A DNA stretch of 38,399 bases, taken from contig CALVKH010000006.1 in assembly GCA_944332575.1 (NCBI GenBank), positions 1-38,399 on the forward strand, in the 5' to 3' direction. Positions within the stretch are counted from its first letter, which is position 1; every line of letters begins with the position of its first letter. Shown here one piece after another: positions 2 through 23,210 of the stretch. This stretch comes from an uncultured Bacilli bacterium (GTDB lineage Bacteria > Bacillota_I > Bacilli_A > RF39 > UBA660). The notes beneath the pieces were generated by a model. That model searched no databases, had not been told where the DNA came from, and saw only the letters and a list, made by a program, of their open reading frames with translations. Made by a program: the position numbers and the translations under genes.

Positions 2-778
2 GGACTTCCTAGTGTTGGTAAAAGTACTATTATCTCTAAAGTTTCTAAAGCTAAACCTAAAATAGCCGCGTATCATTTTACTACCATTACCCCTAATTTA
101 GGCGTTTGTAAAACTAAAGATGGTAGAAGTTTTGTTATGGCTGATCTACCAGGATTAATTGAAGGAGCTAGTCTTGGTGAAGGATTAGGCGATAGATTTT
201 TAAGACATATTGAGCGTACTAGAGTAATTGCTCATGTTATTGATATGAGTGGTTTTGAAGGACGTGATCCTTATGATGATTATGTAAAAATTAATAAAGA
301 ATTAGGCGATTTTAATAAAAATCTTTTAAATAAGCCTCAAATAATTATTGCTAATAAAATGGATATAGCTGGAGCAGAAGAGAACTTAAAGAAATTTAAA
401 ACTATGGTTAATGTACCAATATATCCGATTTCTGCTATGAATGATACAGATTTTGATGTTATTTTGACTAAGCTAGCAGATATGTTAGATGAAATACCAA
501 GTACTCCCCTTTATAATGAAGATTTATTTGAATCCCATGTGTTATATAAGTTTAAAAAAGAAGAGCCATATACGATTACGAAAGAAAATGATGAATTTGT
601 CATTCGTGGTGAGGAAGTAGAAAAATTATTTAAAATGACTAAATTTACTACGGAAGAAGCTATTCAAAGATTTGCTAAAAAATTAAGAAAAATGGGAATT
701 GATGATAAATTAATTGAAATGGGATGTAAAGAAGGAGATATGGTAAGAATTCTTGATTTCTATTTTGAATTTAAATAA
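2..778 (+). CDS. obgE: GTPase ObgE/CgtA, 3' part (5' end outside window)
   Basis: Ribosome-associated Obg-family GTPase, which acts in the cytoplasm in late 50S subunit assembly and stress control. The frame is open from base 2 and begins directly at the P-loop GLPSVGKST. It continues through the switch region (YHFTTITPNLGV), the G3 motif DLPGLIEGA, the G4 motif NKMD and the G5 motif ISAMN, then a C-terminal OCT-type domain of about 70 residues. The N-terminal glycine-rich Obg fold and the first G-domain strand lie upstream of the window. An internal ATG at 137 is not the start, because the P-loop is encoded before it. An 11-bp hairpin terminator follows at 824-855. The assignment is secure; only the missing N-terminus limits it. 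Confidence 0.95.
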   Translation, partial: GLPSVGKSTIISKVSKAKPKIAAYHFTTITPNLGVCKTKDGRSFVMADLPGLIEGASLGEGLGDRFLRHIERTRVIAHVIDMSGFEGRDPYDDYVKINKELGDFNKNLLNKPQIIIANKMDIAGAEENLKKFKTMVNVPIYPISAMNDTDFDVILTKLADMLDEIPSTPLYNEDLFESHVLYKFKKEEPYTITKENDEFVIRGEEVEKLFKMTKFTTEEAIQRFAKKLRKMGIDDKLIEMGCKEGDMVRILDFYFEFK

Positions 779-823
779 TTACTATTTTTATGGAAATATG
801 AAAAGAAGATTCTTTTAAAAGAC

Positions 824-855
824 AAAAAGTAAAGTTTATAATGACTTTACTTTTT
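824..855 (+). terminator. intrinsic terminator after obgE
   Basis: Left arm AAAAAGTAAAG (824-834), 10-nt loop, right arm CTTTACTTTTT (845-855). The 11-bp stem ends in a T run. It lies just before the nusB promoter, so obgE and nusB are probably separate transcription units. Confidence 0.75.
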
Positions 856-860
856 ATTTA

Positions 861-869
861 TGTTAAAAT
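861..869 (+). promoter_or_regulatory. extended -10 promoter for nusB operon
   Basis: TG at 861-862, one base, then TAAAAT at 864-869: an extended -10 element (TGnTAnAAT type). No clear -35 is seen 17 bp upstream. It sits directly after the obgE terminator and 19 bp before the nusB start. The same TGnTA(T/A)AAT style recurs at several promoters in this window. Confidence 0.5.
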
Positions 870-887
870 TTTTGTAGGTGAAGTTAT

Positions 888-1286
888 ATGAAAAATAGAA
901 GTGAATTAAGAGAAATCAGTATGAAGGTCTTATATCAAAAATATATATTAGAAAACACTTCTACTTCTTATGATATTCCTAGTTTAATTAAAGAACAATT
1001 AGAAGTAGAAAACGATTTTGTGAACGAATTAGTAAACGGAGTTATTACGAATCAAGATAAGATTAGTTCCATTGCTAATAAGTACTTAATGGATTGGAAT
1101 ATTGATCGTCTTAGTAAAGTGGATAAAGCCATTTTAAGTATTGGTATTTATGAACTTATTTATACAGATACTCCAAGCGTAGTAGCGATTAATGAAGCTG
1201 TTGAATTATCAAAAAAATATAGTGATGAAAAAGTTACTAAAATGCTAAATGCAGCTCTAGATAAAGTGTATCATAATGAGGTATAA
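888..1286 (+). CDS. nusB: transcription antitermination factor NusB
   Basis: Small all-helical RNA-binding protein. With NusE/S10 it binds boxA in rRNA leader RNA and supports processive antitermination. The 132 residues match the usual NusB length. Typical family stretches are the N-terminal RSELREISMKVLYQ helix, DRLSKVDKAILSIGIYEL in the middle, and the C-terminal VAINEAVELSKKYSDEK. The start is supported by an AGGTGA ribosome site about 7 bases upstream. The next gene, xseA, follows after 2 bases and its ribosome site lies within the nusB end, indicating tight cotranscription, as in Bacillus, where nusB and the xse genes are also neighbours. Confidence 0.93.
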   Translation: MKNRSELREISMKVLYQKYILENTSTSYDIPSLIKEQLEVENDFVNELVNGVITNQDKISSIANKYLMDWNIDRLSKVDKAILSIGIYELIYTDTPSVVAINEAVELSKKYSDEKVTKMLNAALDKVYHNEV

Positions 1287-1288
1287 AT

Positions 1289-2539
1289 ATGAATCCTAAT
1301 TATATTACAGTGACTCAATTAACTAAATATATTAAATATAAGATCGATAACGATGTTAATTTAGATACCGTATATTTAAAAGGAGAAATTTCTAATTTTA
1401 AGGCTCATACTAGAGGACATTTCTATTTTACTATTAAAGATGAGAATAGTCGTATTAATGCTGTAATGTTTTCTTCCGCTGCTTCTAAAATCAAATTTGT
1501 TCCTACCGATGGTATGAAAATATTGGTAACAGGTAAAATAAGTGTATATGAAGCAACGGGAGGATACCAAATATATGTGAATGAAATGCTAGAAGATGGA
1601 GTAGGGAACCTTTATATTGCTTTTGAACAATTAAAAAAGAAATTAGAACAAGAGGGATTATTTGATCCAGCTAAAAAGAAGAAAATACCTAAAATTCCTA
1701 CTACGATTGGAATCATAACTGCTCCCACTGGTGCTGCTATCAAAGATATATTATCTACGATTAAAAGACGTTGGCCACTTGCTAAAACCATTCTTTTTCC
1801 TAGTTTAGTCCAAGGAGAAGAAGCGGCTAGTGATATCGTTCGTAATATAAATATAGCTAAAGATTATGATTTAGATGTTTTAATTATAGGTCGTGGTGGA
1901 GGCTCTATTGAAGACTTATGGCCTTTTAATGAAGAAATAGTGGCACGTGCTATCTATGATCTTGATATTCCTACCATATCAGCAGTAGGTCATGAAATAG
2001 ATTTTACTATTGCTGACTTTGTCGCTGATCTAAGAGCACCAACGCCAACTGGTGCTGCTGAAATGGCAGTTCCTAATGTTAATGATGTTATTAATTATTT
2101 AAAACAATTGGAGTTAAGATTAACCTCTAATATTACTAATCATATTACTATAAAAAAGGAACATTTAAAAAAATTAGAAAATAGTTTTGTTTTAAAGAAT
2201 CCTTTAACTATTTATGAAGTAAAAGAACAAAAATTTGATAATTTATTTGAAAGATTATTAATAAGTTATAAAAATTTAGTTAATACTAATAGTAACAAAA
2301 TACTTTTAATTAATAATAATCTTATTAATAGTATGAGTAATTTGTTAAGTAAAAATACGAATAGATATAATAATTTGATTGAAAAATTATCGGCGCTTAA
2401 CCCTGTTTTAACCTTAAAACGAGGATATAGTATTGTAAAGCGTGATAATAAAGTAATAGATAGTATTAAAAAATTAAAAAAAGATGATATAATAAATATA
2501 GAATTGCAAGATGGAAATGTTGTTGCTAAAGTTGTGTAG
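1289..2539 (+). CDS. xseA: exodeoxyribonuclease VII large subunit
   Basis: Catalytic subunit of exonuclease VII, which degrades single-stranded DNA in both directions with XseB. The 416 residues begin with an OB-fold (about 1-100, including ISNFKAHTRGHFYFTIKD). The conserved catalytic core follows, with GIITAPTGAAIKDI, GRGGGSIEDLWPFNEE, SAVGHEIDFTIADFVADLRA and PTPTGAAE. After this comes a long helical, coiled-coil-rich region that in the family carries XseB. It is a little shorter than the Bacillus protein. The ATG lies 2 bases after nusB. Its TAG stop overlaps the ribosome site of the next small gene (TAGGAGG), so translation is probably coupled. Confidence 0.95.
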   Translation: MNPNYITVTQLTKYIKYKIDNDVNLDTVYLKGEISNFKAHTRGHFYFTIKDENSRINAVMFSSAASKIKFVPTDGMKILVTGKISVYEATGGYQIYVNEMLEDGVGNLYIAFEQLKKKLEQEGLFDPAKKKKIPKIPTTIGIITAPTGAAIKDILSTIKRRWPLAKTILFPSLVQGEEAASDIVRNINIAKDYDLDVLIIGRGGGSIEDLWPFNEEIVARAIYDLDIPTISAVGHEIDFTIADFVADLRAPTPTGAAEMAVPNVNDVINYLKQLELRLTSNITNHITIKKEHLKKLENSFVLKNPLTIYEVKEQKFDNLFERLLISYKNLVNTNSNKILLINNNLINSMSNLLSKNTNRYNNLIEKLSALNPVLTLKRGYSIVKRDNKVIDSIKKLKKDDIINIELQDGNVVAKVV

Positions 2540-2547
2540 GAGGAAAT

Positions 2548-2799
2548 ATGTTCAATAATAATTTTAATAATTTTAAAAGTCATAATATTGCAGGAATTAA
2601 TAAGACACCTAGTAATATTGCAGGAGTTAACAAAAATCCTATGAATATCGGTGGAATTAACAAAATGCCAAAACAAAATAATCCTTTTTCTAATGTGAAA
2701 ATGGACAATCAATTATCTAAGCAAATCATGAATTCTAGTGGTGAAAATGTTATAAGAAATGAGTTTAATCAGGGTGGAGGTTTTAACGGTGGCAACTAA
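2548..2799 (+). CDS. small Asn-rich repeat protein between xseA and xseB, function unknown
   Basis: I do not recognise this 83-residue protein. It is low in complexity and rich in Asn. After the opening FNNNFNNF it carries three imperfect tandem units of 10-12 residues (HNIAGINKTPS, NIAGVNKNPM, NIGGINKMPK), then a mixed segment and a Gly-rich end (NQGGGFNGGN). There is no signal peptide or membrane segment. The start is well supported by TAGGAGGAAATATG, whose SD overlaps the xseA stop. Its last codons overlap the xseB start, and the Gly codons GGTGGAGG form the xseB ribosome site. It is therefore translated in the nusB-xseA-xseB operon. It might touch exonuclease VII subunit balance, but that is inference from position only. 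Confidence 0.7.
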   Translation: MFNNNFNNFKSHNIAGINKTPSNIAGVNKNPMNIGGINKMPKQNNPFSNVKMDNQLSKQIMNSSGENVIRNEFNQGGGFNGGN

Positions 2800-3010
2800 A
2801 GAAAAAAACTTTGAAGAATCATTAGTAGAACTTGAAAAAATAGTAAAAGATCTAGAAAGTGGAAATATTCCGTTGGATGATGCTATTACTAAGTTTAATG
2901 AAGCTATGAAGATAGCTAAAGTTTGTAATGATAAGTTAAATAAAGCGGAAGAAAGTGTCAATAAAATTTTAAATAAAGACGGAACACTAGAAGAATTTAA
3001 TGTTGAATAA
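2789..3010 (+). CDS. xseB: exodeoxyribonuclease VII small subunit
   Basis: Accessory subunit of exonuclease VII; several copies bind each XseA. I prefer the GTG at 2789, giving 73 residues (VATKEKNFEESLVELEKIVK...), which is the family's normal size and N-terminus. GGTGGAGG at 2773-2780 lies 8 bases before it. An ATG at 2759 would add ten unfamiliar residues (SLIRVEVLT) and lacks a good ribosome site. Family features are the two-helix pattern with LEKIVKDLESGNIPLDDAITKFNEAM and a C-terminal NKILNKDG stretch. The first 11 bases overlap the preceding repeat protein in another frame. A terminator follows immediately. Confidence 0.9.
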   Translation: MATKEKNFEESLVELEKIVKDLESGNIPLDDAITKFNEAMKIAKVCNDKLNKAEESVNKILNKDGTLEEFNVE

Positions 3011-3034
3011 ATTACCAGTTATGGTAATTTTTTT
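3009..3034 (+). terminator. terminator after xseB
   Basis: AAATTACC (3009-3016), 6-nt loop, GGTAATTT (3023-3030) and a T run to 3034. The stem begins within the xseB stop codon. It separates the nusB-xseB operon from spoIVB. Confidence 0.75.
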
Positions 3035-3080
3035 GTTGGAGACAATAATAATGTAGTTTGATTTAAAAGGAGATGAAATC

Positions 3081-4067
3081 ATGAATTTTAAACGTAAACT
3101 ACTTACTTTTTTCTCACTTCTTTTACTGTTGATGCCAATATCTACTTATGCTTATTCATCTAAAGTTGTCTTAGGAGGACAAAATATCGGAATAGAGGTA
3201 AATTCCAAAGGTATAATGGTTGTTGGTTTCTATAAGGTAAATAATTCTTATATCGGTCGTGATGCTGGTATTGAAATAGGTGATAAAATCGTTGCTGTTT
3301 CAAATAAGGAAGTAAATTCGATCGATGATATGGTTACCGCCATTAACAATAATATTGAAGATTCGAAAGTAAAACTGACTATCTCAAGAGGTAATAAGAA
3401 TATTGATGTTACGCTCGATTTAGTGAAAGATGATAATAATGTTTATAAGACCGGATTATATGTAAAAGATGAAATAACAGGAATTGGTACATTAACTTAT
3501 ATTGATCCAGAAACAAAAATTTATGGAGCACTTGGTCATGAAATAATAGAGAGTAATACTAATAAAAAGATCGAAGTAAAAGATGGTAAAATCTTTAATT
3601 CTGAAGTTACTGGTGCTACTAAAAGTGAACAAGGTACAACTGGAGAAAAAAATGCTATATTTAATAAGAATATTGTTTATGGTGATATAAAAGAAAACAC
3701 TATTAATGGTATTTTTGGAACCTATACAACTACATTTAGCAAAGATAATTTAATTGAAGTAGCAAATCCTAATGAAATAGTTCGTGGTGAAGCTAAATTA
3801 CTAACAGTACTAAAAGATAATCAAGTAGAAGAATTTGATATTAATATTTTAAAGGTAAATACTGATAGTAAAACTAAAAACATTTTATTTGAAATTACTG
3901 ATAAAGAACTTTTAAATATAACTAATGGAGTAATTAAAGGAATGAGTGGTAGTCCTATTGTTCAAAATAATAAATTAATAGGAGCTGTTACTCATGCTAT
4001 TGTAAACGATAACGAAAAAGGATATGGAATATTTATTACCACAATGTTAGAAGAAGGAGAAAATTAA
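3081..4067 (+). CDS. spoIVB: SpoIVB-type serine peptidase (S55), sporulation signal
   Basis: In Bacillus, SpoIVB is secreted from the forespore and triggers processing of pro-sigma-K by cleaving SpoIVFA. The 328 residues show an N-terminal membrane/signal segment (about 7-24, LLTFFSLLLLLMPIS). A PDZ domain (about 33-115, with DAGIEIGDKIVAVSNKEV) follows, then the S55 peptidase domain. The catalytic His is in GALGHEI (His153) and the nucleophile is in GMSGSPI (residues 287-293). The protein is shorter than the Bacillus one. The start has an AAAAGGAGATGA ribosome site. Bacillus places spoIVB next to spo0A, which is absent here, where the neighbour is xseB. The family call is strong; whether this organism makes spores cannot be told from one window. 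Confidence 0.9.
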   Translation: MNFKRKLLTFFSLLLLLMPISTYAYSSKVVLGGQNIGIEVNSKGIMVVGFYKVNNSYIGRDAGIEIGDKIVAVSNKEVNSIDDMVTAINNNIEDSKVKLTISRGNKNIDVTLDLVKDDNNVYKTGLYVKDEITGIGTLTYIDPETKIYGALGHEIIESNTNKKIEVKDGKIFNSEVTGATKSEQGTTGEKNAIFNKNIVYGDIKENTINGIFGTYTTTFSKDNLIEVANPNEIVRGEAKLLTVLKDNQVEEFDINILKVNTDSKTKNILFEITDKELLNITNGVIKGMSGSPIVQNNKLIGAVTHAIVNDNEKGYGIFITTMLEEGEN

Positions 4068-4087
4068 GAGACTGAAGTCTCTTTTTT
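4067..4087 (+). terminator. terminator after spoIVB
   Basis: AGAGAC-TGAA-GTCTCT hairpin (4067-4082) followed by six T's. It starts at the last base of the spoIVB stop codon. Confidence 0.85.
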
Positions 4088-4110
4088 GATGTCAAATTTT
4101 AGTGAAGCGA

Positions 4111-4139
4111 TTGATATAAAATTTTATTTTTGTTAAAAT
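4111..4139 (+). promoter_or_regulatory. sigma-A type promoter for the phospholipase C-like gene
   Basis: TTGATA (4111-4116), 17-bp spacer, TAAAAT (4134-4139), with a TG extension at 4131-4132. It stands 32 bp before the ATG at 4172 and after the spoIVB terminator. Confidence 0.65.
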
Positions 4140-4171
4140 AGTGTATGTAATAGAATAGATAGGAGTAGATT

Positions 4172-4795
4172 ATGGCATCAGCAATTATACATATTTGTGT
4201 AGCAAAAAAAGTGAATGAGTATTTAAAATTTAAAGAAAAAGAATTGTTTTTAGGAACAATTGCACCTGATATAGCAAAAGAAATAAATAAATCTAAAAAT
4301 GAAAGCCATTTTATTACTGAAAAAGAAGATATCCCTAATTTAGACTTGTTTTTAAGTAAATATAAAGGTAGATTGAAGACAGCATTTGATTATGGATATT
4401 TTATCCATTTATATACGGATAACTTATGGTATAGTAAATTAACTACTGATTTAATTGGTGAAGATGGCCTTGCATTATTAGAAAGTAAAGACGTTAAAAA
4501 CAATGCATTATTAATGCGAGATATTTTTTATAAAGATTATACCAATATGAATATTAGATTAATTGATAAATATAATTTAGATTTAACTTTGTTTTATGAA
4601 GACTTTGAAGTACCTAAAACGTGTATCAAAGAAGTTCCTATAAAAAAACTTAATATTTTAATCGATAAAATGGGAATAATTATTGCTAACTCACATAATA
4701 GGCGTAATAAAGTATTAGAATATCAAAAAGTAGTTAAATTTATTAATGAGACCGCTAAAGAGATAATTTCTTTTTTAGAGAGTAATCCCATATAA
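4172..4795 (+). CDS. zinc-dependent phospholipase C-like protein
   Basis: A 207-residue all-helical protein resembling the zinc-dependent phospholipase C/alpha-toxin-like family that is widespread in Firmicutes as an uncharacterised hydrolase. Likely metal ligands are visible in family order: His7 (AIIHICVA), Asp33 (GTIAPDIAKE), His46 (ESHF), and His79 plus Asp83 (FIHLYTDNLWY, an HxxxD motif). There is no signal peptide, so it is probably cytoplasmic and its substrate is unknown. The start ATGGCATCA has AGGAG about 7 bases upstream and its own promoter. It is a single-gene unit, convergent with the flavoprotein gene and sharing a bidirectional terminator with it. Confidence 0.65.
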   Translation: MASAIIHICVAKKVNEYLKFKEKELFLGTIAPDIAKEINKSKNESHFITEKEDIPNLDLFLSKYKGRLKTAFDYGYFIHLYTDNLWYSKLTTDLIGEDGLALLESKDVKNNALLMRDIFYKDYTNMNIRLIDKYNLDLTLFYEDFEVPKTCIKEVPIKKLNILIDKMGIIIANSHNRRNKVLEYQKVVKFINETAKEIISFLESNPI

Positions 4796-21998: not shown

Positions 21999-23210
21999 TT
22001 AATTAGCTCTTTTTTTCATTAAATATAAACTACTAATAGATCCGGCTAATCCTAAAGTTAAGATACCAGCAAAAATCATAATATTATCACTAGTGGAAGG
22101 ATTACTTGGATTTTCTACATTCTCACCAATAATAGCATAATTACTTAAATGAGTTGTAGTAAATACTGCATAACCATTTTCTACTGTAACAGGAAACGTT
22201 TCTTTTATTTCTCCGTTTTCTACATAAGCAACGGTTAATTTATTATATTTTCCCATTTCATTAGTTAATTTGATTCTAATTGTAAATTCTCCATCATGCA
22301 TAGGAACAACAACATCTGTAGAATCTAAAACTGAAATATCATATAATGCTAAAAGAGTTTGATTATCTTTCACTAATTTAGCAATGTCTTCATCATTTAA
22401 AGATGAAGTTAAATCTGCTACATCTAATTTATAGTCACCATTTAAAGTATCTTTAGATTCAAATATAACATTGTCATTAGTTAAAATATTATTTGACGAG
22501 AATATTACAGCATCAGTAGTATAAGTAACATTCATATCAGTAGTAATATTTCTTTCGATCCATTCCTTTGATGGATATTTATCTTCCGTAGATGTTATGA
22601 CAGAAGTAAATATCATTACATTCTCTTCATTATAAGTTTGATCTGCTAACTCTGGATTATATTTTTTTAACTCTTCAAATTGAGCCTCTAAATCTTCCAT
22701 ACTTTTTAAGAAAGTACGTTCACCTTCCGCATTTACTATTCGTACAGACGTGAATTTTTCAGGTATATAATACTCTGCTTGATATAATACATTACCATCT
22801 TCATCTGTAACATATGTTGGTTCATGTACTAAATTAATAGTTAAAGTACCATCGCCTTTAATAATATAAGAAACAGTACCATCTAAATAATTAATAGTAT
22901 TATTTCCGCTAACTACAATTGTAGTATCATTAATTCCACCAGCAAAGTGATAAGCTTTTTTATCTTTTTCAAAGCTCAATACTGTATCATCAAAAGAATA
23001 AGAAGCAATCACTTCATCTGTTCCATCCGGATTACAAGTATTATTGTATAGAGTTAATTCACTTTTTCCTCCACCAATACCACATGTTTTTCCTTCTACA
23101 CTTCCCCATCCTATTTCATAATCTTGCTGTCCTGTATCAGCACTTACTATCATTGGCAAAGCTAATAATGTACAACCTAAAGCCCCTAAAATTCTGTTTA
23201 ACTTTTTCAT
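21999..23210 (-). CDS. secreted surface protein with C-terminal NPSTSDN sorting-like tail
   Basis: A 403-residue exported protein of unknown role. It has a signal peptide (about 1-24, ILGALGCTLLALPMIVSAD), then a beta-rich extracellular region. Near the end, DGEFTIRIKLTNE through HLSNYAIIGEN resembles the module often placed just before the anchor in gut Firmicute surface proteins. The tail has NPSTSDN, a hydrophobic helix (IMIFAGILTLGLAGSISSLYL) and a basic end (MKKRAN). That is the architecture of a sortase signal, but with NPSTSDN in place of LPxTG. An AAGGAGGA ribosome site and a near-consensus promoter precede it. It is monocistronic. Confidence 0.75.
   Translation of the reverse strand: MKKLNRILGALGCTLLALPMIVSADTGQQDYEIGWGSVEGKTCGIGGGKSELTLYNNTCNPDGTDEVIASYSFDDTVLSFEKDKKAYHFAGGINDTTIVVSGNNTINYLDGTVSYIIKGDGTLTINLVHEPTYVTDEDGNVLYQAEYYIPEKFTSVRIVNAEGERTFLKSMEDLEAQFEELKKYNPELADQTYNEENVMIFTSVITSTEDKYPSKEWIERNITTDMNVTYTTDAVIFSSNNILTNDNVIFESKDTLNGDYKLDVADLTSSLNDEDIAKLVKDNQTLLALYDISVLDSTDVVVPMHDGEFTIRIKLTNEMGKYNKLTVAYVENGEIKETFPVTVENGYAVFTTTHLSNYAIIGENVENPSNPSTSDNIMIFAGILTLGLAGSISSLYLMKKRAN

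Follow-up and report, generated by a model that had tools for sequence, protein, structure and literature searches.

The locus described here is a case of probably ordinary translational coupling around a real, narrowly distributed family of orphan small proteins. We analysed a window of 38,399 nucleotides (the whole stretch of DNA under study) from an uncultured Bacilli bacterium, in which a gene for 83 amino acids, here called mini (2548..2799), lies between the genes for the two subunits of exonuclease VII. The genes of the locus are encoded on the plus strand: nusB (888-1286; from the list of open reading frames and Pfam), xseA for the large subunit (1289..2539; Pfam PF02601, 8.1e-97), the Asn-rich mini (identified by its open reading frame, its homologues and dN/dS), xseB for the small subunit (2789..3010; Pfam PF02609, 1.2e-19) and, 3′ of xseB, spoIVB (3081..4067; peptidase S55, Pfam PF05580). 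The xseA stop codon is fused with the Shine-Dalgarno sequence of mini (TAGGAGG, 2537..2543, plus strand). GGAGG in the Gly codons of mini (2776..2780, plus strand) constitutes a Shine-Dalgarno-like site 8 nt before the GTG of xseB (2789-2791), and the mini stop codon TAA occupies 2797-2799, giving an overlap of 11 nt. We place the xseB start at GTG 2789 and not at the in-frame upstream ATG 2759, because the equivalent start is ATG in the other four of the five genomes of the window's genus. A sequence-only reading had described an 83-residue gene wedged between xseA and xseB, three NI(A/G)G(I/V)NK repeats in its product and a GTG-started xseB with GGAGG in Gly codons and an 11-nt overlap; all of this is confirmed by the coordinates, by Pfam for XseA and XseB, and by the sequence itself.

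Homologues of mini were found in all 15 genomes of three genera that were searched in full (5/5, 9/9 and 1/1). A protein search of 291 genomes of the family reached E values of 0.004 or better in seven genomes, one of them the window's own, with weaker matches in another 18. The profile of the seven-member alignment A1 returned the same seven at 3e-27 or better; its four further matches were weak (0.01-0.08) and fell in frames of at least 720 codons. Searches of the order (385 genomes) and the class (395 genomes), whose samples overlap that of the family, yielded no further credible mini and only weak matches (E 0.008-0.04, two genomes each). Such weak matches outside the three genera (E 0.008 and worse) lie mostly in long frames. 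A scan of genome_contigs returned one relative, apparently G192. With strong matches in 7/291 genomes, mini is absent from most of the family, in agreement with the earlier statement that it is not part of the standard xse operon. Pairwise dN/dS was calculated for eight pairs chosen from 105 possible and amounts to 0.10, 0.12, 0.14, 0.17, 0.18, 0.18, 0.35 and 0.65, which points to purifying selection in seven of the eight pairs (0.10-0.35), with one species pair at 0.65. Judged by its homologues and these ratios, mini is a real protein-coding gene.

Several other candidates were set aside: two short frames (L009 and L018), for which no xse neighbour was found and which are absent from the profile-search matches; a short frame of G501, which continues as a different protein; and, in G294, an ORF of 31 aa on the antisense strand. 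A viral origin of mini was rejected, with no relative in viral_contigs (searched with the protein and with alignment A2), and tblastn found nothing at E ≤ 1 among phages or plasmids. An RNA element was likewise rejected: no Rfam match reached the gathering score, and the window showed no tRNA.

The proteins of the family comprise 82-108 aa, and an Asn-rich N-terminus is common to all 15 sequences. In the window, the repeats read NIAGINK (residues 13-19), NIAGVNK (23-29) and NIGGINK (33-39), and across the alignment of 15 they follow the pattern N(I/V)AG(I/V)N--P at ten-residue spacing. Conservation is strongest in the C-terminal signature Q(I/V)MNS-G-N-I-N, which corresponds to QIMNSSGENVIRNEF (residues 59-73) in the window. 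Eight columns are invariant in 15/15 (M1, N3, P21, G26, M61, G65, N67 and N71), four of which fall within the signature; conservation of at least 90% is further found for N62, S63 and I69 of the signature and for I14, A15 and G16 of the first repeat. The IAG of the first repeat, P21 and G26 therefore match the signature in conservation, yet the repeats are nearly gone in G283. A profile of the signature found one strong match per genome in 15/15, each of them mini, and three weak extras (E 0.2-5). All members have a positive net charge (+2 to +8), no Trp, at most 4% Leu and 16-33% Asn, with aromatic residues spaced along the Asn-rich N-terminus; the genes have 24-35% G+C. The window protein has no Pfam match at E ≤ 1; among the seven members scanned against Pfam, one has a match to a DUF at E 0.3 and nothing else was returned. 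Alignment A1 has no match in NCBIfam and none among PDB chains at E ≤ 1, and PHROGs gave two weak matches of about 0.05. The AlphaFold2 model has a mean pLDDT of 58.9 and a pTM of 0.18, with no residue at 90 or above and one helix (68-76). This low confidence is consistent with disorder without proving it, and the thin alignment of 15 sequences may explain the low pLDDT instead.

The order xseA-mini-xseB-spoIVB is found in 5/5 genomes of the window's genus, and mini sits after xseB in nine of ten genomes of the two other genera. In G298, mini lies on a different contig from xseAB, after some 5.4 kb of genes without match to the window. The end of the xseAB contig of G298 reads into a gene resembling one upstream of its mini, and an island has therefore probably been inserted between xseB and mini. 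This apparent island (L111 1-5402) holds three long tandem unknown proteins (441-482 aa); L111 also has a short frame resembling the gene at the end of the xseAB contig. With the order varying by genus and mini separated in G298, there is no fixed link of mini to xseAB. The expectation of homologues between xseA and xseB in relatives thus held in part: homologues exist in 15/15 and their repeats recur, G283 apart, but they stand between xseA and xseB only in the window's genus.

The same terminator-like hairpin stands between xseB and spoIVB throughout the window's genus (5/5) and follows mini in seven of the ten other genomes, as if mini and xseB had been swapped in front of a fixed terminator. 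In the window, this hairpin, TTACCAGTTATGGTAA with a T run, lies between xseB and spoIVB (3012..3034, plus strand); it was found by pattern and by eye, and a stricter terminator scan did not return it. In an XseA tree of 37 rows, the 15 mini genomes group together (89/89, below the treekit star), and within this group the window's genus (100/100) branches next to the other two. The outgroups of this tree are the best-scoring xseB loci and not a random sample, and eight of 45 loci are omitted (XseA short or missing, or the second copy of G060). Because no mini was found in the outgroups, the direction of the order change is not readable from them. In G297 the contig stops short of spoIVB, which was found on a different one. 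A search for SpoIVB gave no match in G057 (97% complete), G295 (93%) and G296 (74%), and the corresponding loci (L113, L115 and L114) keep xseA-xseB-mini with spoIVB absent; this absence may mark a loss of sporulation within one genus. A window gene at 4172-4795 has a weak match to zinc-dependent phospholipase C (23.6 bits against the Pfam cut-off of 26.8), and its relative directly follows mini in G057 and G296. Elsewhere in the window, positions 21999-23210 of the minus strand encode a 403-aa protein with a signal-peptide-like start (by eye) and no Pfam match at E ≤ 0.01.

The conservation of −10 elements indicates that mini probably has its own promoter. An exact extended −10 element, TGNTATAAT, is present at most 80 nt upstream of mini in 11/15 genomes (chance 0.7-3.4% each by first-order resampling). 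Its distance to the mini ATG is 53-55 nt in the window's genus, in all five genomes of which it falls within xseA, and 23-26 nt in six genomes belonging to the second genus. In the window, the element TGATATAAT (2485..2493, plus strand) in the 3′ end of xseA, separated by 54 nt from the mini ATG, is the candidate promoter of mini and xseB. Within the final 75 nt of xseA, TGATATAAT occurs in 5/5 genomes of the window's genus and in 0/37 others (10 of the sister genera and 27 further relatives), with a chance of about 1% per sequence in a first-order resampling that ignores the coding frame; the five occurrences count as one event, because the five genomes share descent and the stretch also encodes XseA. 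Among the ten copies of the sister genera, six have an exact −10 element of their own, two more (G295 and G085) have one that is one base off, which is expected by chance in 29% and 26%, and G057 and G296 have no such element upstream of mini. A terminator-like hairpin after xseB was seen by eye in the six copies with an exact −10 element and not in G085 and G295. A plain promoter scan of 700-4300 gave 21 sites against a shuffle mean of 25.5, the hexamer of the TGATATAAT element being among them; with no surplus over the shuffles, the case for a promoter has to stand on conservation.

The overlap of mini and xseB amounts to 11, 11, 1, 14 and 14 nt in the five congeners, and a Shine-Dalgarno-like site lies in the Gly codons of mini 5-8 nt before xseB in all five (GGAGG in four, GGGGG in one). 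Two features of a coupled pair are present in these genomes: the downstream start overlaps or adjoins the 3′ end of the preceding ORF, and a Shine-Dalgarno sequence lies inside that ORF at working distance. GGAGG is missing from the mini tail in nine of the ten relatives where xseB does not follow, the exception being G295; the tails of G293 and G294 retain the weaker AGAGGA. Fisher's test for GGAGG in the tail (4/5 congeners vs 1/10 others) gives p = 0.017, a value that is descriptive only, because the five congeners share kinship. The proposal that the Gly tail may be kept for xseB is in keeping with the narrow range of distances of the site (5-8 nt), despite an overlap of 1-14 nt, and with the lack of GGAGG in all but one of the tails where xseB does not follow.

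The same reading had seen a special merger of coding and regulatory roles in this tail, a view that the relatives do not uphold. We fetched the loci of 30 relatives, of which 29 have both xse genes and one is the congener G060, leaving 28 relatives outside the genus. For each of these we located the best Shine-Dalgarno-like site of xseB, with 4-8 matching bases: in 15 relatives the whole site falls within xseA, in six it overlaps the xseA stop and in seven it comes after it, two of the seven having another wedge gene before xseB. An xseB ribosome site within the preceding gene is therefore common in the family, and mini appears to have taken the place of xseA as its carrier. In G291 and G292, the last Gly-Gly codons of xseA are the Shine-Dalgarno sequence for mini, and in G057 and G296, where mini follows xseB by 2 nt, this sequence lies in the last Glu codons of xseB. 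Huber et al. 2019 report that, in 20 of the 24 groups of prokaryotes they compared, roughly half or more of the overlapping pairs have a Shine-Dalgarno motif in the upstream gene, and the termination-reinitiation pairs described there have the same short overlap and the same motif in the upstream 3′ end (PMC6728339). In comparison with that account we see no difference in kind, the upstream gene here being an orphan. The Gly/Shine-Dalgarno merger looks real in the window's genus but ordinary for bacteria. As in the xseA-xseB operon of exonuclease VII, the two genes have the same direction, but in the window's genus an unrelated gene lies between them, whereas in 26/28 relatives outside it no more than about 30 bases separate the xseB start from the xseA stop. 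In other genera, two different genes occupy this junction, one of 62 aa in L044 (G207; 1272-1460) and one of 231 aa in L046 (G097; 763-1458, reverse-complement coordinates), neither with a Pfam match at E ≤ 0.01; the xseA/xseB junction thus takes in different genes repeatedly.

We considered four further accounts of mini. One holds that the peptide serves exonuclease VII, either as an accessory subunit or as a regulator, and is produced beside XseB and in proportion with it. In its favour, mini adjoins xseB on one side or the other in 14/15 genomes, with XseA present in 15/15; its overlap with xseB also fits the enrichment of overlapping gene pairs for subunits of one complex (PMC10666635). 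However, xseB occurs in 271/291 genomes of the family and mini is confined to three genera, mini has no homology to XseA or XseB in the Pfam comparisons described above, and in the six sister-genera copies with an exact −10 element a terminator-like hairpin was seen by eye after xseB. The tie to exonuclease VII suggested by the wedged position is weakened by the order change, by a promoter that is probably its own and by the location of mini apart from xseAB in G298, which make mini an orphan neighbour of xseB and not a demonstrated part of the enzyme; we regard such a role as rather unlikely. The tail site and overlap in 5/5 congeners would also be explained if the peptide had no function and the ORF were a leader passing ribosomes to xseB, but the ten relatives without xseB after mini retain the protein and its C-terminal signature, and three pairs tested among them have dN/dS of 0.10, 0.18 and 0.35, which leaves this account hardly credible.

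Since spoIVB is a neighbour, adjacent to mini or one gene away in 11/15 loci as fetched, a sporulation protein (a small spore protein or coat component) was also weighed, and RF39 Bacilli are predicted to be capable of sporulation (PMC10868615), which bears on mini if the window belongs to them. Against this, mini is kept in the three genomes without a match to SpoIVB, the spore gene searched, and no spore-protein family of Pfam or NCBIfam was matched by the seven members. The −10 elements before mini resemble what we take to be the housekeeping type, which we also count against a sporulation protein; overall, we find it quite improbable. The positive charge, the Asn content and the spaced aromatic residues would suit a peptide rich in Gly and Asn that binds nucleic acids or forms condensates (prion-like) and that may handle single-stranded DNA or RNA. 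This account draws on composition, with no homology to such a family, and genes of 24-35% G+C favour Asn codons in any case; we consider it unlikely.

A binding peptide acting via short motifs is the likeliest reading of mini, and our best guess is that it is disordered and basic. In full, mini would be a lineage-specific, basic, Asn/Gly-rich and probably disordered cytoplasmic peptide, mostly made from its own extended −10 promoter, binding through short motifs and coupling xseB through its tail, an account to which we give an even chance. A single origin of the gene in the ancestor shared by the three genera is probable and, as conservation suggests, it would mostly be expressed from its own extended −10 promoter. 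Its product of 82-108 residues would be intrinsically disordered and cytoplasmic, with the degenerate ten-residue repeats and the C-terminal signature as putative short linear motifs that would bind at least one protein or nucleic-acid partner in the cell. In the window's genus, where mini lies between xseA and xseB and its tail carries the xseB Shine-Dalgarno sequence, xseB is probably translated by ordinary coupling. A bolder scenario, possible but doubtful, is that a new family of disordered, multivalent peptides was born once in an uncultured Bacilli clade with its own promoter and then came to stand before xseB in one genus, the −10 element lying inside the xseA frame and the tail forming the xseB ribosome site, so that expression of the small subunit of exonuclease VII would depend in part on the promoter and the translation of a protein unrelated to it.

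Lineage-specific small proteins in bacteria, or orphans, are short, of low complexity and narrow in taxonomic range, and have no known domain. In all these respects mini is alike; it differs in being present in every genome searched of three genera and in carrying a sharp C-terminal signature. The locus points to no new mechanism. What it contributes is a conserved family of small proteins, marked by a precise C-terminal signature and without significant match in the copies of Pfam, NCBIfam and PHROGs searched (7/15 members scanned), together with a clean, small case of a young orphan gene settling in a housekeeping operon. As the peptide exists both with xseB behind it and without, a comparison can separate the constraints of coding from those of the ribosome site.
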